Shown here: positions 36,199-47,852 of the stretch, in pieces
Layout: each line of letters begins with the position of its first letter
Numbering within the stretch: position 1 is the first letter of the stretch
The notes under the pieces: model-generated
The model's input: the letters and a program-made list of their open reading frames with translations, nothing else
Databases searched by the model: none
What the model was told of the DNA's origin: nothing
NCBI GenBank assembly: GCA_030655135.1
Contig: JAURWC010000081.1
Coordinates: forward strand, 248,001-312,000
Source of the DNA: Hyphomicrobiaceae bacterium
Lineage (GTDB): Bacteria; Pseudomonadota; Alphaproteobacteria; Rhizobiales; Hyphomicrobiaceae
Reading direction: 5' to 3'
Length of the DNA stretch: 64,000 nt
Made by a program: the position numbers and the translations under genes

Positions 36199-38508
36199 TC
36201 ATCGATCGCCATCTATGAGTTCGCGAATTTTCGCGCCAAGCGCGTCGAGCTCGAACGGCTTGGTCAGCAGATCCATTCCGGGAGAGAGAAAGTCTTCCCG
36301 GATTGTTGCTTTTTCGGTGTAGCCGGTGATGAAGAGCACTTTGAGTGACGGACGATACACCCGCGCCATTTCGGCAAGCTCGCGCCCATTGATTTGCGGC
36401 AAGCCAACGTCAGTGACCAAGAGATGAATGGGCTGATTTGATTTAAGGTGCGGCAAGGCGCCGTGCGCGTCGCCGGCCACGATGGCCTTGTAGCCCAACT
36501 CGTCGAGAACTTCGGTGATGATCAGACGGACTGTTGGATCGTCCTCGACGACGAGGACCGTCTCGGTTCGCCCACGAGAGACAGGACTAGCCGCTGCGGG
36601 CGTTGCAGGAATTTTCTCGGACAAAGCAGCCCGGGGAAGATAAAGGGACACCTCAGTGCCGCGGCCCACCATGCTTTGTATATCAACATGGCCACCGCAT
36701 TGCTTCGCAAAGCCGTAGATCATCGAGAGCCCGAGACCAGTTCCCTGGCCGATTGGCTTAGTGGTGAAAAACGGATCGAACGCTTTACCGATGACCTCGG
36801 CGGGCATACCGGAACCCGTATCCGAGACGCAGATACGGACGTAATCACCGGCATGCATTCCCTTAAAAGATTTAGCGGCATTGGCATCGAGAGATACGTT
36901 GAACGTCTCTACAGAAATTTCGCCGCCGTCGGCCAGAGCATCGCGGGAATTGATGACGAGGTTCAAGATCGCGTTCGCGAGCTGGTTTGCGTCAGTCAGT
37001 GCCGGCCAAACATCAGCCGATAAAGACATTGTGAGTTTGATATTTTCGCTCACGCTCCGACGCAGCATGTCCTCAAAGCCAACGAGAATTTCGTTGATCT
37101 GCTGGCCTTTGATATCCAGAGACTGGCGCCTTGAGAACGCAAGCATGCTGTGGGTAAGGGCTGCCGCGCGACGCGCTGATGTCGTCGCGGCATTGATGAA
37201 GTTGTCGAGATCCTCAAGTTTTCCTGACTTCAGCCGGCGCTGAATCAGGCTCAGTGACGCGGTAATACCGGTCAGCAGATTATTAAAGTCGTGGGCTATG
37301 CCGCCTGTCAGCTGGCCGATCGCCTCCATCTTGTGGCTTTGACGGAGCTGTTCTTCGGCTTCGACGAGACTGCGGGCATTTTCTAGTTCTTCTGTGACGT
37401 CTCGAGCCACACAATAAAAGAGGCCTTCTTTTGGAACGATCGTCCACGACAAGCTCCTGTATGAGCCGTCTTTGGTTCTCAGACGGTGCAGGAAAGCCGT
37501 CTTCGTGAACATCTCCTCGATATGCGATTTTTCCGCTGGATCTTCCAACCAATGAGATGTTCTGCCTTCGAGCTCACTTTGCTGCCAACCGAGCGTACGC
37601 GTCCAGGCCGGGCTAACGCTGGTCCAGACGCCTCTGGCGTCGGCAATACCAAGCAAATCGCGGGAAAGGCGCCAGATGTCATCCCGCTCCAACGTCCGCT
37701 CGCGAACGCGTTCCTCCAACGTCTCGTTGAGGAGCAGCAGTTTCTTTTCAATCAGCTTTGAGTGGGTGATGTCGTAGATGACACCACTGTAGCGTCGGGC
37801 CTTGGAGTCACTGTCAGAAACGTACTCACCCTTGCGCGTGAGCCATCTCACCTCTTGGGTATCCGGCCGCGTGATTCGAAATTCGACACGACCTTCGGAC
37901 ATCGAGCCGGAGTTTCTTTCGCCGAGGATGATTGGCGTGTCGTCAGGATGCACGAGAGCATTGATGCTGCGGACCGGAAGGTCGGTCGCAGGGTGCAGTC
38001 CAAGAAGACGACAAAACTGGTCCGACACAGTCGCTGTACCGAAGCCATCAATGTATTCGAACGTGCCGACTTCCCCGGCGGTCTGAGCGACCCTGAGCCG
38101 TTCCTCCACCTTTTTTTGTTCGGTAACGTCCACGAGGACGCCGTTGAAATGGGTGGAGTCTGCAGCTTCGCGGCGGCCCCGGGCATGCAGCCACCGTAAA
38201 GAGCCATCAGCCAGATTGACTCGAAACTCTTTCGAAAAAACTTCGGCGCCACGCAGCACGCCGCCGATGGCCAGGCGGATTCTTGTCTGATCGTGAGGAT
38301 GGATGATGGAAACGAAGGTAGCAGGGGCGATGCCAGCTACCGCTTGCGCGGCCGAGATATTGTACATACTGGCAAAGCGCGCATCCCCGGAGATGAGGTT
38401 GGTGCTCAGGTTCCATTCCCAAGCTCCCGCTGCACCAGAGACGGCAAGGGTCAGCCTTAGCCGTTCGGCCAATGACTCGGGAGATTCAGCATCTGGGTTG
38501 ATGGCCAT
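36199..38508 (-). CDS. Triple-PAS hybrid histidine kinase
   Basis: 769 residues, soluble. Three PAS/PAC sensor domains: about 20-135 (ends [11 protein letters not shown]), 140-260 ([10 protein letters not shown]), and 280-395 ([10 protein letters not shown]). Then a HisKA with [14 protein letters not shown], an ATPase with [16 protein letters not shown] and [10 protein letters not shown], and a receiver with [10 protein letters not shown] and LTKPFELD. The HDFNNLL type of kinase usually feeds its own receiver. It ends the chemosensory cluster, 6 bases after cheC, so it may join a phosphorelay with the Che proteins. The PAS ligand is unknown. Confidence 0.92.
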
Positions 38509-38514
38509 CGCGTT

Positions 38515-39201
38515 CTATTCTGCAGGCGTCAAGCCAGTATTACCGAGATCGTCGTGCATCACGCGCGCTATGAATTCACCGATCAGAACTTTCAGCGCGG
38601 CTAAGGAAGGCACATCCATCAGCATTGCGATGTAACCGCGAATGTCGCGGCCTTCCACGGCAAAGTTGATGAAGAAAAAGAGGACTAGACCCTGTTCGGG
38701 AGGAGAACATTGGACCGTGAAAAGCTCTTGTCCCGTTCCTCTCTTTATTGTCGGCAAAGACATGCTCAGCGGCTGGTTCAACATATTGGCCATGGTGCCA
38801 ACGCAGCCGTTCAGTATGACATTGCCGGTCTCAGCCAGGGCCTCTTCTACCATGCTGGAGATTTGGTCTGGCGATACGTCCGCTCCAAGGACCGCGCGGG
38901 TCAACTCGATGCCGTTTTTCTGCGGAAAAATGAGCAGCGCCCGGCCGTCAAACGCGCCGGAGAAAGCTTGCGTCACAGCAACGAGGTCGTCAGTTTCGCG
39001 CTGACCTATTAAGTCGGCTGCGGATTGATGAGTAACAACTTCAACCGACGGCACCGAGAGCAAAACCTGCCGATCGACCATCTTGCGCAAGCTGGATGCT
39101 GCGCGACTGACGCCGATATTGGCGATCTCAGTGAGAGCGTCCCTCTCAATGTCGCTGAGTTTCCTGTCGTCGGTGATTTCGTCGACACTACGATTGGTCA
39201 T
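38515..39201 (-). CDS. cheC: CheC-like CheY-P phosphatase
   Basis: 228 residues. The CheC/CheX phosphatase motif occurs twice: LTEIANIGVSRAASSL in the first helix and VEEALAETGNVILNGCVGTMANML in the second, each with the E-x2-N pair that attacks phospho-Asp. CheC removes phosphate from CheY and ends the signal. Its start overlaps the receiver gene stop as ATGA, so the two are made together. CheC usually works with CheD; no cheD is in the window. There is no CheZ either. Confidence 0.88.
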   Translation of the reverse strand: MTNRSVDEITDDRKLSDIERDALTEIANIGVSRAASSLRKMVDRQVLLSVPSVEVVTHQSAADLIGQRETDDLVAVTQAFSGAFDGRALLIFPQKNGIELTRAVLGADVSPDQISSMVEEALAETGNVILNGCVGTMANMLNQPLSMSLPTIKRGTGQELFTVQCSPPEQGLVLFFFINFAVEGRDIRGYIAMLMDVPSLAALKVLIGEFIARVMHDDLGNTGLTPAE

Positions 39202-39572
39202 GCGGAGACGATCTTGTCGGCTTGAATGAGAAAGTCGCGCAGACCTTCCGGTGTGACCGGCTTGGCAACAAACGTCGCATTGGCCGCCCGCGCTAGCGAG
39301 AGGACTTCCGCCTGCACGTTTGCAGTGATGATCGCGATCGGCATGGATGGTCGTGAGCTGCGCAGATCCTGGGCTAGTTCAAGACCATTTTTCCCGGGCA
39401 TATTGTAGTCAACCAGCACGACGTCGATCTCGTGTGAACCTATCAAGTCCATTGCCTCATCAGCGTTGCTGGCTTCTAGCCGTTCCCAGGTAGGCTGCGT
39501 TGCGGTGACAGCTTTGCCAGCAACGATCCTGGCGAGTTTGCTGTCGTCAACGATCAGTACGGTTACGGTCAT
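39198..39572 (-). CDS. cheY: CheY-like single-domain response regulator
   Basis: 124 residues from ATG 39572 (MTVTVLIVDDSK); an in-frame extension upstream is unlikely. Acid pocket Asp 9 and Asp 10, phospho-Asp 55 in LVDYNMPG, and conserved Lys in FVAKPV. It is the natural target of CheA here. It overlaps cheC by four bases. A 144-base gap separates it from cheA, so cheY-cheC-kinase could have its own promoter. Whether it binds a flagellar motor or another target is unknown because no motility genes are near. Confidence 0.87.
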   Translation of the reverse strand: MTVTVLIVDDSKLARIVAGKAVTATQPTWERLEASNADEAMDLIGSHEIDVVLVDYNMPGKNGLELAQDLRSSRPSMPIAIITANVQAEVLSLARAANATFVAKPVTPEGLRDFLIQADKIVSA

Positions 39573-39716
39573 TCGTCGGGGCTCCAACTTTAGTAGAATG
39601 GGGTTATTACATGGGCGCGGTGTTGCGTCATACAAATCAACCCTCTGCAAATTTAACAAACGGCCCGCGCGCGGTTCGCAGCTGGCCTCGTTCCAAGCGC
39701 CGATCGACCGTCTTGC

Positions 39717-41351
39717 CTATCCACCCAGGACATTGGAAATATTTAGCACCATCAAAACCTTACCGTCGCCTAGCAGTGCCGTGCCGAGCAGGTCGGTAAA
39801 GCCGGACAACAATCCGGTCACGGGGCGTAAATGGACCTCCATCCTTTCTCCAAAATCCTCGACCTCAAGACCCACGGGGGCGGCGGGAGAGCCGACGACC
39901 AGAATACGTGCGTTGTCAGGTCTTGTTGATGCTGGTAGCCCGAGCAGCGACGACAACTGGATCAGGGGGAGGACGCGGTTTCGAAGTGAGAAGGCCTCTC
40001 CCGCCTTGATTGGGAGAACGCGATCGCGGGGTATTCGCACGGTTTCGCGAACGGCCTCGAAAGGCACGCCGAACCACTGCTCACCGGCTCGCACGAGCAT
40101 GATGGTTGAAACGAAAACTGCCAGAGGCAAAATGAGCGTGACATTCGTCCCGGCACCGGGATTGGAGGTTACCGCAATTCGGCCGGAGAGAGCCTCGACG
40201 GATGTTTTGACAGCGTCCATCCCGACGCCGCGGCCAGAGACTTCCGATACAGATGACGAGGTTGAGAATCCCGGGGCGAATATCAGGTTGACCACCGCCT
40301 CCTCGTCGAGGTCAGCAACCGTACTCGGCGTCATCATGTTCTTGCGGAGCGCCGTCCGACGAATTTGCTCAACCTCGAGGCCGCGTCCATCGTCGCTTAC
40401 AGAGATCGTGATTTGGCCAGCACTTTTCCTGGCCTCCAGTTTAATGCGTCCGGACGCAGATTTGCCGGCTGCTGTTCTGACAACTGGTTCCTCGATGCCA
40501 TGATCAAGCGCGTTTCTCAAAATGTGGAGAAGCGGCTCATAGAGCCCGTCCACGATGGTCTTGTCGGCCTCAACCTCTTCGCCAACGATCTCAAGATCGA
40601 CCGTTTTTCCCAGTTTTCCAGCCATGTCGCGAACAAGTCGTGGAAACCGTCGAAACGAGCGGGAGAGTGGTACCACTCGGAGCCGCGTGACCGATCGGTG
40701 CAGATCGCCGATCAGACGCTCCATATCGGTGTGGTTTGCTTTCAGGGCCCTACTGAGTTCCGTGTTGACGTCCGCGGCCCTCGACGCAATGTTCCCTAAG
40801 ACATTCTTTGCGATGATAAGTTCACCCACGACGTCGGCAACCGCATCCACTTGAGTTCCGTCTATCCTAAGAGAGCGGTTAGCGGCCGAAGAAGATGAAG
40901 GCGTTGCGATGGGAGCTTCCGGCTTAGAAGACGGCGACAGCACCGTAGGATCTCGGGAATACGGTGAGGGCCCGGCGATGTGGCTTAGCAGCGCCTTTAA
41001 CCGCTCGCTTTCCATCAGACTTTCGGGCCCTAGGGCGCCTGTCGCGGCAATTGACTCAATCCACGCGTCCGAGGCAGTCACGCATTGCAGCAGGGCATCG
41101 AGCACCGGCTTGTCTGCAGGCACCCTGTGTCCGCGCACTGCGGACAGCAACTCTTCTGCGGCGTGAAGCGCTGACAGCATGGGTGGGAAGTCGAAAATTG
41201 CGACTGATCCCTTCAGCGTATGCATCGCGCGAAAGGCGCTATCGATACGCGCCTGATCTCCCAGATTACCGTCGAGAGAAATCAGATCGTCCGACGCTTG
41301 CTGCACAAGCTCGCGTGATTCAATGAGGAACTGCTCCATCAACTCGTCCAT
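39717..41351 (-). CDS. cheA: Chemotaxis histidine kinase, short form
   Basis: 544 residues. HPt domain with phospho-His 44 in AMHTLKGSV; a short Pro/Ser linker in place of a full P2 domain; dimerisation and kinase core with NALDHGIEEP, SDDGRGL and GRGVGMDAVKTSVEALSG; and a C-terminal CheW-like P5 (FVSTIMLVRAG... RNRVLPLIQLSSLLG). It lacks P2 and any receiver, so it should dock its regulators through the kinase core or HPt. Its ATG overlaps the cheR stop as TGATG. Confidence 0.94.
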   Translation of the reverse strand: MDELMEQFLIESRELVQQASDDLISLDGNLGDQARIDSAFRAMHTLKGSVAIFDFPPMLSALHAAEELLSAVRGHRVPADKPVLDALLQCVTASDAWIESIAATGALGPESLMESERLKALLSHIAGPSPYSRDPTVLSPSSKPEAPIATPSSSSAANRSLRIDGTQVDAVADVVGELIIAKNVLGNIASRAADVNTELSRALKANHTDMERLIGDLHRSVTRLRVVPLSRSFRRFPRLVRDMAGKLGKTVDLEIVGEEVEADKTIVDGLYEPLLHILRNALDHGIEEPVVRTAAGKSASGRIKLEARKSAGQITISVSDDGRGLEVEQIRRTALRKNMMTPSTVADLDEEAVVNLIFAPGFSTSSSVSEVSGRGVGMDAVKTSVEALSGRIAVTSNPGAGTNVTLILPLAVFVSTIMLVRAGEQWFGVPFEAVRETVRIPRDRVLPIKAGEAFSLRNRVLPLIQLSSLLGLPASTRPDNARILVVGSPAAPVGLEVEDFGERMEVHLRPVTGLLSGFTDLLGTALLGDGKVLMVLNISNVLGG

Positions 41352-42205
41352 CAAGCACCTGGACGTTGATAGACGATGGCATCCTTGAAACGTCGGGCGG
41401 AAAATTCGAGGGAGATCCGGGACATTGACTCACTATGCCCAAGGCAGATGAAACCATGTGAATGCAGGGCATTGGATAGATTATTTACGGCTGCTAGCCT
41501 TGAGGCATCGTCAAAATAGATTAAGACGTTACGGCAGAAGATGACGTCGAACGGGCCTTGCGCGGACACGCCGCCGGCGTCTAGCAGGTTCACTTGAGTG
41601 AACGTCACCGACTCTCGCAGATCCGCAATGATTTCCCGGCGTCCCCCGTAACTCGGCGAGAAATACTCGTTGTGCAAAGCTGCAGGAAGTTTCGACAAAG
41701 CTCTCTCGCCGTACCTTCCCTGTTTTGCTGCGGCCAGAACGCGGGTATCGATATCGGAGCCGACAATGTCGATGTGATAGGCGTCGACCAGAGGCCAATT
41801 TTCCAGGAGCCAAATGGCGACAGAATAAGGTTCTTCCCCGGTCGAGCATGGCACACACCAGATACGGACAAGATCGCCGGGCAATTTCGACCGCACAATC
41901 TCAGGCAATATGTCATGGGTCAGACAACGGAGCTGATGGTCCTCTCGGTAAAAGTAGGTCTCGTTGACGGTGAAGATGTTGATGAGATGTTCGGCTTCGC
42001 CTGAGCCTGATCTGAGCAAGGCCATATAGGAGTTAAAGGAGGTCGAAGACGTTTGCGCGATCCGCTCGGCGACGCGCCTTTCGATGTAGAACCTCTTGCT
42101 CTCGTCATAGCTGATACCTGATAGACGATAGAGATACTCGCACAGGCGCAGAAGCTCATCAGAGCTCAGGAGCGGCGCAGGATTTTCTGATCTGATCTCC
42201 GCCAC
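41351..42205 (-). CDS. cheR: Chemoreceptor methyltransferase
   Basis: 284 residues. All-alpha N-terminal domain (YLYRLSGISYDESKRFYIERRV) and SAM-binding core with FTVNETYFYRE, WCVPCSTGEEPYS, GSDIDTRVL and VIFCRNVLIYFD, typical of CheR. It methylates glutamates of the receptor to adapt it. It has no TPR extension. The neighbouring receptor has no NWETF-type tail, so CheR must find it directly. It ends in cheA and starts 3 bases after cheB. Confidence 0.94.
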   Translation of the reverse strand: MAEIRSENPAPLLSSDELLRLCEYLYRLSGISYDESKRFYIERRVAERIAQTSSTSFNSYMALLRSGSGEAEHLINIFTVNETYFYREDHQLRCLTHDILPEIVRSKLPGDLVRIWCVPCSTGEEPYSVAIWLLENWPLVDAYHIDIVGSDIDTRVLAAAKQGRYGERALSKLPAALHNEYFSPSYGGRREIIADLRESVTFTQVNLLDAGGVSAQGPFDVIFCRNVLIYFDDASRLAAVNNLSNALHSHGFICLGHSESMSRISLEFSARRFKDAIVYQRPGA

Positions 42206-42207
42206 GC

Positions 42208-43290
42208 TTACTTGGCCCAGCTGATCAGCTTGTCAGCGATCCCTTCAATGGGAAGAACTGCTTCAGCGCCGCCGGATTTAAAAAGCTCGCCGGGCATCCC
42301 CCAGACGACAGCCGTCTCTTCTGCCTCCGCGATCGTGCGACCGCCAAGCGTTCGTAGCGTCGTCATAGCAGCGACCCCGTCGTTTCCCATCCCGGTGAGC
42401 AGCACACCAATTAGTCGCGAGGGGACAAAATGTTCCATGGCGCTATTAACGAGGCGCTCGACACTGGGGTGCCAGAGATAGGTGGGCAAGGACGGCACCG
42501 GGGCAGCCGCGGGAACGCCGTCTCGGAGCGTCACGACGACATCGGCGTCCCCTTTTGCAACGTACACGTTTCCCCGGACCATTTTTGTGGGACGGATAAG
42601 TTCAGTTACCTCAAGCGGAGCGAGGCCATTCAAGCGGCGCGCAAAGGGCCCGGTGAACGCTGCTGGCATGTGCTGAGCAATCAGGACGGGCCAGGGAAAC
42701 ACAGCCGGAAGACGCGAGAGTAACTTATCAAGGGCCGGCGGCCCGCCGGTGGAAGTCCCCACAATGACGAGCCCGGTGCCAAAGACATTAGCGACTGCGT
42801 CGTCTTCCGCAAAAGACTCCACGTCGTCAGGCCGAACATCCCTGATTGTTCCGGTTTTAAGGCGGACACGCTCGGCAAGCCTGTGGCTTCTGCGTAATCG
42901 GGCCGTTGAGGCCGTGACGACTTTAGCAAGCAAACCGGGACCGAATTCCCGCATATTCAAGGACATCGCGCCTTCGGGTTTCGTCATGAAATCGACGGCC
43001 CCCAGCGTCAACGCCTCAAGCGTTATCGCGGCGCCTTCCTCGGTCTGGGACGAAACCATGATGGTAGGGGTCGGCCGCTCCAGCATAATCCTGTTCAGAC
43101 ATGCGATTCCGTCCATCACTGGCATATTGACGTCGAGTGTTATGACATCTGGAAGGAACGAGTGCAGTTGCGCCAGAGCCTCTTCCCCGTTGCGCGCATA
43201 CGCGACGTCAAAATCTGAGTTCCCGCGAAACACGCTTCCAAGAAGCCTCCGCATCAGCGCTGAATCGTCCACAACCAGGACTTTGATCAC
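42208..43290 (-). CDS. cheB: Chemoreceptor methylesterase/glutamine deamidase
   Basis: 360 residues. Receiver with Asp 8, Asp 9 and phospho-Asp 53 (ITLDVNMPVMDG), a linker, and the methylesterase domain with the Ser-His-Asp triad in GTSTGGP, AQHMP and GMGNDGV. Phosphorylation by CheA activates it to demethylate the receptor. Order and length are normal for the family. It sits between the triple-CheW gene and cheR with gaps of 6 and 2 bases. Confidence 0.94.
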   Translation of the reverse strand: MIKVLVVDDSALMRRLLGSVFRGNSDFDVAYARNGEEALAQLHSFLPDVITLDVNMPVMDGIACLNRIMLERPTPTIMVSSQTEEGAAITLEALTLGAVDFMTKPEGAMSLNMREFGPGLLAKVVTASTARLRRSHRLAERVRLKTGTIRDVRPDDVESFAEDDAVANVFGTGLVIVGTSTGGPPALDKLLSRLPAVFPWPVLIAQHMPAAFTGPFARRLNGLAPLEVTELIRPTKMVRGNVYVAKGDADVVVTLRDGVPAAAPVPSLPTYLWHPSVERLVNSAMEHFVPSRLIGVLLTGMGNDGVAAMTTLRTLGGRTIAEAEETAVVWGMPGELFKSGGAEAVLPIEGIADKLISWAK

Positions 43291-43296
43291 TGAAGC

Positions 43297-44703
43297 CTAT
43301 CCTTCAGGAGCCAGGTCGCCACGGCGAAGCATGTCCTTCTCAGTCTGATCCAGCAGGGAGCCTGGATCAACGAGAAGTAGCATCCTTCCGTCAGCGCTTG
43401 ATGCAATTCGGTCAAACAAGCCGGCATCACCCAGCGTAACGTCCGGGGCAGGGCCAATGTCCCGTCCCGGGATACGAATAATTTGATCAATATCATCTAC
43501 CAGGAAGCCAGCAATTACCGTGCCTATACTGATGATGATGATGCGACCCGCAATGCCGGCCGGGGACAGCTTCAAACCAAAACGTTCGCGTTGATCTATA
43601 ATTGGGATGACTTGGCCGCGGAGATTGAGGACGCCTTTGACGAATCCCGGTGCGTGCGGCACCCGGGCGAGACTGTGCGGGCAGCGCACGATTTCTCGAA
43701 CGGCTGCGATTGGAAGGCCGTAGCGCTCATCCTCGAGCGAAAAGATCACAAACTGCTCGGCCTCTGATTTTGGGGTTGCGTGGGCGTCTGTCATCGTTGT
43801 CGCTGCCTCGCCGATATCGTTTGACGCGAGCCTCGCGGCCGTTTCAGCATCGAAAAGCTTTTCGATGGAGAGTATCGAGACCAACCGCTTCCCGTCATCG
43901 AGCCGGCAGATGGCTTGGATCTGGCTCTCGCCTTTGCCCCTCGTCAGCACGGCCGGTACCGGATCGAGAGAAGACGTCGGAACCCGAATAATTTCTTTGA
44001 TGCGGTCGACGACCAGTCCGACTCGCATCCTGCCAAGGCGGGTAAAAAGCACGCGCCTACCTTCTGCATTTGCACGGTGAGCGGCGGGCAACCCGATAAG
44101 ATAATGAAGCGAAAGAAGAGACGTCATCTCGCCGCGCTGGGCGGCGACGCCCAATATGGCCTGATCAGATCGCGGCAGGCTGGCGACGTTATCGTCCGCC
44201 GGTGCGACCTCTTCGATCTCCTTAATCGGGAGGGCATATTCCTGACTGCCCAGCATGAAGCTCAGAAAGACGTGATCGAAGCTTTCAGCGCTGCTCTTGT
44301 CTTTGGGCTGCGCGGGCTCATCGGAGGCCACGGATGCACGCGTTCGGCGAACCTCGCCGAAGGCACGATCGAGCATTCCGTTTATATCGATGCGCTCCGG
44401 CCCGTCAGCTTCGGCCAGCGATGTGACCTTGTCGACCAGAAGGCCAACCGGACCATTCCGACGCACAACAACAATTTTGGATGAACCGATTGGACCGGCT
44501 GCCTTGACGCCCAACAACGTTGCCAGCGAGACGACAGGAAGAGCGGCCCCGCGAAGATTGGTAATACCGAGAAGTGCGGCCGGGCTGTGCGGTACGCGGG
44601 TGAGAACACCAGGCCGTATCACTTCAGTTAGCGTAGCTGACGACAAGCCAAAGCTTTCGCCACCCACGTTCAGCAGCAGCACCAGATTGTCCAGCGAGCT
44701 CAT
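43297..44703 (-). CDS. Triple-domain CheW scaffold protein
   Basis: 468 residues from ATG 44703; a GTG at 44712, right after the receptor stop, is possible. Three CheW-like SH3-fold domains in a row: residues about 5-115 (NLRGAALPVVSLATLLG), 135-280 (FLSFMLGSQEYALPI, with a degenerate AAQRGEMTSLLSL), and 310-450 (FSLEDERYGLPI, VLNLRGQVIPIIDQRERFG). A usual CheW is one such domain of 150 residues linking receptor to CheA. Three in one chain could bridge several receptors and kinases, or match the double-tip receptor. Confidence 0.88.
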   Translation of the reverse strand: MSSLDNLVLLLNVGGESFGLSSATLTEVIRPGVLTRVPHSPAALLGITNLRGAALPVVSLATLLGVKAAGPIGSSKIVVVRRNGPVGLLVDKVTSLAEADGPERIDINGMLDRAFGEVRRTRASVASDEPAQPKDKSSAESFDHVFLSFMLGSQEYALPIKEIEEVAPADDNVASLPRSDQAILGVAAQRGEMTSLLSLHYLIGLPAAHRANAEGRRVLFTRLGRMRVGLVVDRIKEIIRVPTSSLDPVPAVLTRGKGESQIQAICRLDDGKRLVSILSIEKLFDAETAARLASNDIGEAATTMTDAHATPKSEAEQFVIFSLEDERYGLPIAAVREIVRCPHSLARVPHAPGFVKGVLNLRGQVIPIIDQRERFGLKLSPAGIAGRIIIISIGTVIAGFLVDDIDQIIRIPGRDIGPAPDVTLGDAGLFDRIASSADGRMLLLVDPGSLLDQTEKDMLRRGDLAPEG

Positions 44704-44712
44704 GGGATGCAC

Positions 44713-46641
44713 TCAGGTTTCAGCGATGAGCAGCTCGTCAGCCAGACTCGCGATCTCTTCGATGGCGGCCGCCAAATCTTCGGCCCCGCGCGCCTGCTGA
44801 CGCGCGGCCGTGGCAGCTTGGGCCGCGGCACCGCTGGTCTCTTCGGCAGCCGTCGCGATTTGCTCGGTGCCCGAAAGAACCTCGCCGCAGGATTTCAAAA
44901 CGGCATCCGCGCCGCCGAGGATCTCATTGACCCCCGCCTTGATGCTGAGCATTCCCTCCTCAATCGAAGCCAGCCGCTCGTCGATGCCGGCATTCTTGCG
45001 AACCTCCGTTTGTGAGGTTGCCGCAATCAACTCAACGTCGCGGCGGACGGCGAGGATCTGCGTCTGGACGTTCCTGACGACGTCTTTCACCCGCCCGGCG
45101 TTCTCTGCCGACTCCCGGGCGAGATTGCGAATATCAGCCGAGACGACAGCAAAGCCCCGACCTTGTTCCCCGGCGCGCGCGCCTTCGACCGAGCCGCTGA
45201 CAGCCAGCATGTTTGTCTGGATAGCTACCAGGGCGATGCCATCGACGAACTTTTCGATACGACTTCCAGACTTCTCCAGAGTCGCTATCAACTCAGAAAC
45301 GTCCCTGCTGTCCTGCGCTGCCTGAAGGGCATTTTTCAGGAGCTGCTGAACGCCTTCGCGGTTGGCCTTCAGGATAGGAAGCAGGCGATCGGCGCGCTCG
45401 GAAGCGGCGGCGGCTGCAGTCTTACTGCTGACCGCTGCTTTCTCTATTTGGCGCATCGCGGAAGATGATTGCTGGGTCGCGGCTGCCTGAGCCTGTGCAC
45501 CCCGATTGATCTGATCAAGCGCTACAAGAATTTCAGTCGCGGCGCCTGACAACTCCTGCACTGTCGCAGAAAGCTCCTCAGCGGCAGAGGCAAGCTGCTC
45601 GGCGCTGTGTTCACCTGTCTCAGACTGCAGCGCTTCAGCGAGCTCTGCGAGTGATTCGGCGGTCTTTTTGCTCTGGTCCAGTGCCGTGCTTTGCTGTTGC
45701 AGGGCGCGCTGCGATTCCATGGTCGCTGCAGACTGTTCTTCAGCGGCGCTCGCGACTTGCTCTGCACCACGTTGCGCTTCACGACTACCTGTATCGGCCT
45801 CGATGGAAGCTACAAGGACCGCTTGCGCGTTCTCTGCCATCTCCCTGACATCTGACCGAAGCTGCTCGATGCTGGCGATCATGTCCCGGCCGCGCTTTGC
45901 TTCCACCTGCGCGGTTTCGGCCGAGGTCTTGATGCTCTTGGCAATGCGGCGGACATCCTCGGCAATTGTGTCTGCGATCTCCCGGACTTCCTTGGCGCTT
46001 TTCTCCGACGTTTCGGCCAGATTGCGAACCTCGTCGGCGACAACAGCAAAGCCCCGCCCGTGATCGCCGGCTCTTGCGGCCTCAATGGCAGCGTTCAGTG
46101 CGAGGAGATCGGTCTGATCGGCGATGTCACCGACGGTGACCGTTATCGCGCTGATATCCGCGGCCTGGGTCTCGAGCTGGGCTACGACATCGACTGCTTC
46201 CAGCTGTCGTGCGGCATTATCCTGCACCGAGGCTGCAAAGCTGTCGATCTGCGTTGCGAATTCGCCGAGCTGGGTTTGCAGTGTGTCGGTTTTTTGCCGC
46301 CAGGATTCCGCGCGCGTGCGCGCCTGTGCGAAAATGGCGCCAAGGCTTCCAACGGCTGCCTGCGATTCATGCGCAGCCCCTGCGGCCTCTTCTGCTGCGG
46401 CCGAGATCTGCATGAGCGATCGATTGAGCTCTTCGGATGCAGCCGAAGCCTCGACGACGCCCGCTGCCAGCTCTTCGGTAGCGGCCGCGATGCGCTCTGC
46501 GGCTTTTTCCTGCCGCGCCCTGGACCGCTCACGCGCGCGGCGAGCGGCCGGCTTCGGCGCTTCTGCATTTGGCACCACGGCCTTGGCAAGGCCCGGTTCA
46601 GTGGATCTGCGTGGAAGATCAGTCTTTTTAACGAGCGCCAT
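44713..46641 (-). CDS. Soluble chemoreceptor with two tandem MCP signalling tips
   Basis: 642 residues, almost all coiled-coil helix, no membrane segment and no separate sensor domain. A canonical tip lies at about 172-212: [21 protein letters not shown] then [17 protein letters not shown] second, diverged tip lies at about 467-508: [20 protein letters not shown] then [18 protein letters not shown]. So one chain carries two receptor hairpins in series. The second keeps the E[14 protein letters not shown] shape but differs at the kinase-contact part. It begins with [12 protein letters not shown] after AGAGG, and ends ADELLIAET without a CheR-binding pentapeptide. It is first in the chemosensory operon. 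Confidence 0.9.
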
Positions 46642-47003: not shown

Positions 47004-47852
47004 TTATGCAGACGGTAATTTCTTAGCAAGCGACACGAGATGCGGCCTTCGATCCGAAAGATTCGCCGTAGCTCCAACGCTGGGGAAGAAGGCAAGCCGC
47101 CCTCGCGAGCTGTGGTCCACTCGGTCGGGTGACATCAAGCCGATTCCTCGTGCGTTCAGGTTTTTGCGAATGTCGGCCATGCTCAATCCGCGCTGGGTGT
47201 ACGCCTCGTAGATCCAGCGAACAGTGGCCAGCTCTTTCGGAGGACCCAATGTGAGGACAACCCTGTCCGTGGTTAGGCTTTTGCGCTCGCCTGGCGCCAG
47301 CAGCCCTTTGTCTCTTCCATCCTGATCGAGTAGCCGCCTACGAAATCCGAAGCCAGGTACACTTCCTTGGCGAAACCCGTAGCTTGCTAGTCGTGCCTTG
47401 CCGACTTTTACTTTTTCTGAAAGCTCGCGGCTGTACTCGGCTGCCAATGTGCGCTTCATGACTTTGTACAAATTGGCCATCGTCGAGCCGTCGTTCGTAA
47501 ACTGTTCTGCACAGTAGTGAACCGTGATGCCAGCGGAGCGACACAGGTATTCAAGATGGGCGCTTTCGTCTGCGTCCTGGAATCGGCCCCAACGCGAGAC
47601 GTCGTAAACCAGGATCGCGTCGAACAATTGAGGTCCTGCCAGTGCGTCGGCGATCAGTTGCCGAAGACCAGGTCGGCGAGCAAGTGTCAGCCCGCTTTTG
47701 CCGGCATCCTCGTAGGTTGCAACGATTTCGATCCCGCGCGCCTCAGCCCATAAGGCGATGGCGGCTTTTTGATTAATCGTCGAGTACTGCTGCTGGTCGG
47801 TGGACATCCGTACATACTGTGCAGCGCGCTTGAGTGGAGGCGTTGTCTGCAT
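47004..47852 (-). pseudogene. Large serine recombinase, C-terminally truncated
   Basis: 282 residues. The N-terminal resolvase domain is intact: AAQYVRMSTDQQQYS with the catalytic Ser, AILVYDVSRWGRFQD, and a following helix YSRELSEKV. A start of the recombinase domain (TVRWIYEAYTQRGLSMADIRKNLNARGI) is seen, then the frame ends after about 35 residues with no family likeness. Full members run 450-550 residues with zinc and coiled-coil parts, so this is a relic. It lies at the border between the chemosensory cluster and an accessory region and may have inserted that region. Confidence 0.8.

Follow-up and report, generated by a model that had tools for sequence, protein, structure and literature searches.

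An F9-class chemosensory operon of a compact alphaproteobacterial subtype, with a double-tip soluble receptor, a triple CheW and a PAS hybrid kinase

The DNA considered here is a stretch of 64,000 nucleotides (hereafter the window) from a Hyphomicrobiaceae bacterium (assembly GCA_030655135.1, contig JAURWC010000081.1, positions 248,001 to 312,000), which holds between its positions 36199 and 46641 a chemosensory operon of eight open frames, all on the minus strand and tightly spaced. This cluster is a member of the already described F9 class and not a new kind of system. Its genes are transcribed in the order receptor, triple CheW, CheB, CheR, CheA, CheY-like receiver, CheC/CheX protein, and PAS hybrid histidine kinase. 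An earlier note, made from the letters of the sequence, had listed these eight genes on one strand, and Pfam matches the expected domains in every one of them:

44713..46641, minus strand: DosM-type soluble receptor, 642 amino acids (aa), with two MCP hairpins and a basic N-terminal tail (two MCPsignal stretches in Pfam; tip spacing and tail charge; match to 3g67_A; structural model)
43297..44712, minus strand: triple CheW (CheW3), 471 aa (three PF01584 stretches; three beta-rich domains in the model)
42208..43290, minus strand: CheB, receiver plus methylesterase (Pfam; NCBIfam PRK00742 above cut-off)
41351..42205, minus strand: CheR methyltransferase (PF01739, PF03705)
39717..41354, minus strand: short CheA with P1, P3, P4, and P5 (Pfam), the P1-P3 insert of its relatives being absent
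39198..39659, minus strand: CheY-like receiver, likely start at 39572 (PF00072)
38515..39201, minus strand: CheC/CheX-type phosphatase with two ExxN motifs (PF13690, PF04509)
36199..38508, minus strand: PAS hybrid histidine kinase with a C-terminal receiver (Pfam: PAS, HisKA, ATPase, receiver)

CheA probably starts with the ATG at 41351. The CheY start is probably the ATG at 39572, as the listed TTG would add 29 residues and the relatives measure 126 to 129 aa. Pfam searches found neither cheD nor cheZ within the cluster (for CheD, the cluster is the full scope of the search), and no motility genes were found adjoining it, either among the nearest neighbors by Pfam or, by eye, at 24 to 31 and 50 to 58 kb. 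The nearest neighbors code for an NAD synthase, a receiver, a Crp-like regulator, a methyltransferase, a resolvase, a TetR protein, and an HlyD-type efflux protein; the resolvase-type recombinase gene (window positions 47004 to 47852) lies immediately upstream of the receptor gene. The absences claimed in the earlier note are thus borne out, and the adjacent motility genes that it had named as evidence of a standard flagellar class, flagellar or motor-switch genes included, were not found.

A published survey describes double signalling domains in tandem, together with a CheW of three concatenated domains, as unique to the F9 class, which in the available text is complete in 64 of 2781 species (PMC9321776). 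The window displays both traits, with the tandem signalling domains in the receptor and the triple CheW encoded alongside it; the matching of a multivalent CheW to a repeated receptor, put forward in the earlier note, is a published feature of this class (PMC9321776). The CheA phylogeny suggested there points the same way. In a tree of 53 rows, the 47 CheAs from double-tip/triple-CheW clusters, including that of the window, are set apart from six others by a branch with 100/100 support, the six including the flagellar CheA from the window's own genome; this grouping was made without a class-specific profile and without a Vibrio cholerae reference. A preceding tree of 56 rows did not separate F9-type from other CheAs, and it was rebuilt after the removal of three long rows (L057_other, L118_WspElike, and L134_Halomonas); the CheA of a genome of mixed type (G067) is carried in these trees as L029_I. 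As for the alternative-function (ACF) class, the window CheA has no receiver, the WspE-like comparison row was too long-branched, and the tree held no Rhodospirillum centenum CheA3. A locus of Vibrio sp. THAF191d, searched as a possible carrier of DosM, yielded single-tip receptors only.

In the receptor, Pfam recognizes two MCP signalling stretches and nothing else, in agreement with the earlier claim that it lacks a sensor domain. Two tip motifs of 17 residues begin at residues 176 and 475. An alignment of 60 receptors, made up of that of the window and 59 of 65 complete relatives (the six omitted are mostly near-copies), shows the core residues of the second tip (e.g., Q475, M478, G483, E486, and R489) to be invariant in all 60. 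The two tips are spaced 300 residues apart in 54 receptors, 299 in four (including that of the window), 302 in one, and 305 in one, and all between-tip gaps in the alignment fall near residues 341 to 346. By profile, residues 415 to 597 match 3g67_A, a soluble chemoreceptor of solved structure (E value of 8e-18), and residues 152 to 260 match the sequence of 2ch7. Further, the AlphaFold2 model contains long helical runs at residues 32 to 340 and 344 to 641 with a mean pLDDT of 89. On this evidence the second tip is genuine and not an alignment artefact: the invariant core, the 3g67_A match, and the helical course of the model through both hairpins all speak for two MCP tips per chain and against a second tip without a hairpin, the other refuting outcome that had been named for the prediction.

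We rest the second hairpin on sequence because the Z values of the MCP structures are too low to be telling for helical bundles. The VIA-align list is topped by unrelated helical proteins (TTYH, Z of 19), with the MCP rows at Z of 11 to 13, and the matches of the second hairpin to 9a65_B, itself an integrative model (276 residues, 1.8 Å, Z of 11.2), and to 8c5v_I (280 residues, 3.4 Å, Z of 12.6) are weak evidence for such bundles. The monomer model also matches the single-chain four-helix bundle 6z0c_D (190 residues, 2.1 Å, Z of 18.0, across model residues 141 to 543), which may be read as lateral packing of the two hairpins against each other; we do not prefer this folded form, because a monomer prediction cannot separate within-chain from between-chain pairing of hairpins. 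Consensus methylation pairs are present in both hairpins, and all 60 receptors retain the Glu/Gln pairs at 301, 302, 355, 362, and 615. The arms of about 140 to 150 residues and the tip spacing of 299 give a rough fit to the 44H length class, by length rather than by heptads counted with class models.

The N-terminal tail of these receptors is basic. The net charge of the first 50 residues ranges from +2 to +10 across the 60 receptors (mean of 6.5; +8 in that of the window), as against a mean of -2.6 and a highest value of +4 in 1323 other 50-residue segments of the same proteins; residues 1 to 31 of the model have a pLDDT under 50. One parallel is FrzCD of Myxococcus xanthus, which has a single signalling domain. 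Like the receptor of the window, FrzCD is soluble and has a basic N-terminal tail, by which it binds the nucleoid according to the available part of its description (PMC5716589). DNA binding has been shown for the tail of FrzCD, whereas that of the window receptor is known by its charge in the sequence.

A scan of genome contigs with the whole receptor gave 76 pattern matches, none of which was confirmed, and a scan with second-tip segments gave at least 568 confirmed places, the best 80 of which were kept as loci, a sample biased to near relatives. By gene content, 38 of these are compact (with CheC and no HEAT protein), 31 have a HEAT protein without CheC, two have both, and nine were left untyped by the script, at least one of which (L073) carries CheC and a PAS kinase. 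In the HEAT subtype, the HEAT protein is encoded between CheB and CheR. A ParA-like ATPase follows cheA in 12 of the 80 loci (L057, L066, L069, L070, L076, L080, L097, L098, L099, L101, L108, and L110), and that of the HEAT subtype recalls PpfA of Rhodobacter sphaeroides, a ParA homologue responsible, in the available text, for the placement of a cytosolic cluster (PMC6829392).

The full set of eight genes in the order seen in the window recurs in 35 of the 38 compact loci; two of the exceptions are cut (L033 and L046), and the third (L093) was scored by the script as lacking CheR and the kinase, though CheR is present. The search for the same order among genomes of the window's taxonomic order, proposed in the earlier note, likewise found it in G114. 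The triple CheW was matched at 1e-20 in 14 of 297 sampled genomes of that order, the window's own included; seven of these neighborhoods were fetched and inspected, six matching genomes lying outside that set, and five of the seven have a double-tip receptor adjacent, with two (G098 and G274) lacking it. No triple CheW was found in 17 genomes of the same family, two of which gave single-CheW matches and two of which are 78 to 83% complete. Key residues, compared for CheA P1, CheY, CheC, and the PAS kinase, are conserved throughout: the phospho-acceptor His45 of CheA in 37 of 37, the five key receiver residues of CheY and both ExxN motifs of CheC in 39 of 39 each, and His406, Asp656, and Asp700 of the kinase in 37 of 37 (the window being counted in the last three comparisons). 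Compact clusters are also seen on conjugative plasmids of Agrobacterium vitis (L113, with IS6 transposase genes upstream of the cluster) and Novosphingobium resinovorum (L137). A literature search, which did not extend to the gene-order supplement tables of PMC9321776, turned up no account of this compact subtype, of its PAS kinase, or of the STAS-like gene considered below.

The CheA of the window consists, by Pfam, of the Hpt, dimerization, ATPase, and CheW domains, i.e., P1, P3, P4, and P5, with no P2. It is shorter by about 100 residues than the complete CheAs of compact loci: its P1-P3 stretch has 54 aa, against 146 to 172 in 36 of 36 of these, a comparison from which two loci with broken CheA frames (L090 and L100) were excluded. 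The insert of the related CheAs was suspected from a C-terminal motif to be a P2 domain, an identity that searches with Pfam and PDB sequences did not confirm. Directly 3' of cheA, a mini-gene for a STAS-like protein is found in 38 of 38 compact and 27 of 33 HEAT loci (65 of 71 overall), and the six HEAT loci lacking it are all cut within or before cheA. Five sequences, four from the 38 compact loci, went into the profile for this gene, and the STAS assignment is weak, with Pfam E values of 0.005 to 0.1, all under the cut-off. A search with this profile found no such gene in the window, the interval 39572 to 39716 included. The insert and the mini-protein may act together, as suggested by this one case of joint absence.

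The flagellar marker FlgI is present in 43 of 48 genomes searched, including a genus mate without a triple CheW match (G001), and absent in G114, G067, G311, G313, and G332; FlhA is absent in the same five. Four of them are compact, and G067 is mixed, having the HEAT gene too. Microvirga pudoricolor and M. aerilata are examples of compact-subtype hosts in which both markers are absent. All five retain CheY, CheC, and the PAS kinase, and the cluster therefore persists without flagellar marker genes. The listed completeness is 100% for both G114 and G067, the latter a single contig. A search of G311, a metagenome assembly whose completeness is not known, matched MCPs nowhere but in the double-tip receptor, which accounts for both matches; a single additional MCP is present in G114 and in G332, in each case beside genes that are Wsp-like by eye, and G313 and G067 have more. 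Counts of the H-kinase_dim model (one each in G114, G311, G313, and G332) were at first sight compatible with a sole CheA, a reading rejected as the model misses a WspE-like CheA in G332; these counts are lower bounds. The missed protein was recognized by eye at L118:87-2396. FlgI is found in 32 of 34 further genomes, the majority of which belong to the HEAT subtype (G320 is in both sets); the two without it (G359 and G379) are metagenome assemblies in which FlgI was the only marker sought.

The genome of the window has both FlgI and FlhA. On another contig it has a second che locus, coding for CheB, a FliG-like protein (by eye), an MCP, CheY, FliM, CheA, CheW, and CheR, along with a protein that is CheZ-like by eye and has no Pfam match. 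At this locus (L010; G000:C51:208000-227999), the MCP has 459 aa and no other Pfam sensor domain, and the 887-aa CheA ends, by eye, in a receiver-like part. Because five hosts retain the F9-type cluster without FlgI and FlhA, and because the window's genome has a separate flagellar che locus, an output other than swimming is favored and is probable. The proposal of a non-flagellar output made in the earlier note is supported by such hosts, but the high frequency of FlgI in the remaining genomes restricts it. The cytosolic array it proposed is well supported by homology; as something new it does not stand, since the pairing of DosM with CheW3 was known from F9.

Several parallels are suggested by known systems. 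Cluster I of V. cholerae shares with the window a two-signalling-domain soluble receptor (DosM, VC1403) and a concatenated triple CheW (VC1402) with a CheA (VC1397), as far as the available descriptions go (PMC7534058, PMC9321776), and DosM and the triple CheW form a two-layer cytosolic array there (PMC7534058). At 0.15 nm per residue, the 300 residues that separate the tips would make a continuous helix of about 45 nm, longer than the 35 nm reported for V. cholerae. Compared with its published description, the operon of the window differs in having CheC, a PAS hybrid kinase, and a short CheA. A second parallel is a locus of Azospirillum brasilense (L114), identified by gene content with the published che2 operon, which shares the double-tip receptor, triple CheW, CheB, CheR, CheY, and CheA in one run, with genes for CheC and a PAS kinase in the vicinity; unlike the window, it has the HEAT gene and the mini-gene, and the PAS kinase there belongs to a different family and is encoded on the opposite strand. 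The available account of che2 describes its function as not known (PMC8561660). In the Che3 system of R. centenum, CheA3 phosphorylates the receiver of the hybrid kinase CheS3, and CheS3 alone phosphorylates CheY3 (PMC3868531). This system resembles that of the window in its Che-type cascade, hybrid kinase, lone CheY, and non-chemotactic output, but its CheA3 is itself a hybrid, CheS3 has an N-terminal receiver, and it is an alternative-function system for which the available text mentions no double-tip receptor (PMC3868531).

Taking these findings together, we consider it likely that the window encodes an F9-class system of a compact alphaproteobacterial subtype, with a membrane-free array, input from a partner, and a two-component rather than a flagellar output. 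The DosM-type receptor, triple CheW, and CheA would assemble into the array. As the receptor is without a recognized sensor domain, its input is likely to be borrowed from a partner, which could be another soluble receptor or a protein such as the PAS hybrid kinase, whose gene closes the operon. Two MCPs without a predicted membrane segment in the same genome, one with a protoglobin domain (L126:1383-2732) and one with PAS domains (L131:2368-3921), are candidate partner receptors. CheA would autophosphorylate at His45 and pass the phosphate to CheB and CheY; CheR and CheB would set methylation, and thus adaptation, at sites in both hairpins; and CheC would dephosphorylate CheY. The PAS hybrid kinase probably shares this CheY or reads it, and the preferred model is a phosphate exchange like that of CheA3, CheS3, and CheY3 in R. 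centenum, a precedent that along with the recurrence in 36 of 38 compact loci strengthens the case for input via this kinase. The outcome would be a two-component response and not a signal to the flagellar motor. A more far-reaching version, which we put forward as speculative, is that the compact array, itself a scaffold without a sensor, is fed by the PAS hybrid kinase of the operon and works without flagella, and in at least one host with no MCP besides its own, as a phosphorelay integrator perhaps held at the nucleoid by the basic tail of the receptor.

Certain observations weigh against this interpretation. The frequency of FlgI (43 of 48 and 32 of 34 genomes) makes a link to swimming possible in most hosts, flagellar sets are reported in 97% of F9 species in the available text of the survey (PMC9321776), and one of the five hosts without FlgI (G067) carries the HEAT gene and thus falls outside the compact subtype. 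Further, CheA2-YFP did not form foci in A. brasilense, whose che2 apparently belongs to this class (PMC6759762). The F9 system could mainly tune flagellar swimming, with its CheY crossing to the motor or its components becoming mixed into the flagellar che array of the cell; the flagellar genes and flagellar-type che locus of the window's genome would accommodate this, as would the membership of CheC in a family of CheY-P phosphatases. We regard it as unlikely, given that the five hosts without FlgI and FlhA retain CheY, CheC, and the PAS kinase.

The copy in the window may also be partly degraded, as it has neither the P1-P3 insert nor the mini-gene, an absence seen in no complete compact locus compared. 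Taken further, it might be a decaying, horizontally acquired copy with little function in this host, to which the adjoining resolvase gene, the lack of triple CheW in the 17 family genomes, and the plasmid location of some F9-type clusters would lend themselves. The eight open frames, their tight spacing, and the intact state of the residues checked make such decay quite improbable. A further alternative is that the PAS hybrid kinase is an independent two-component sensor that lies downstream by chance. Its start is at least 200 bases past cheC in 25 of the 36 compact loci with a kinase, the A. brasilense kinase belongs to a different family and is read from the opposite strand, and one locus (L093) has 2988 bases past cheC with no kinase. 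Set against this, a relative of the kinase lies downstream in 36 of 38 compact loci, which come from several families, the second locus lacking it (L046) is cut 323 bases past cheC, and in the window the kinase begins 6 bases past cheC. An accidental neighbor is thus a tentative alternative that we do not favor, and we retain the kinase as the candidate partner of the F9 array.

What is added to the picture of F9 is a compact alphaproteobacterial subtype in which a PAS hybrid kinase recurs, together with hosts of it that lack flagellar markers and the reduced copy of the window. The available literature characterizes what F9 arrays do as unknown or poorly understood (PMC7534058, PMC7184735). 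Compact hosts without FlgI and FlhA, especially G311, in which the double-tip receptor is the sole detected MCP, offer cleaner test beds for this function; a deletion phenotype in these hosts should therefore not be one of flagellar swimming. The recurrent pairing with the PAS hybrid kinase, in turn, points to one specific protein that may supply the missing input or output of these systems.

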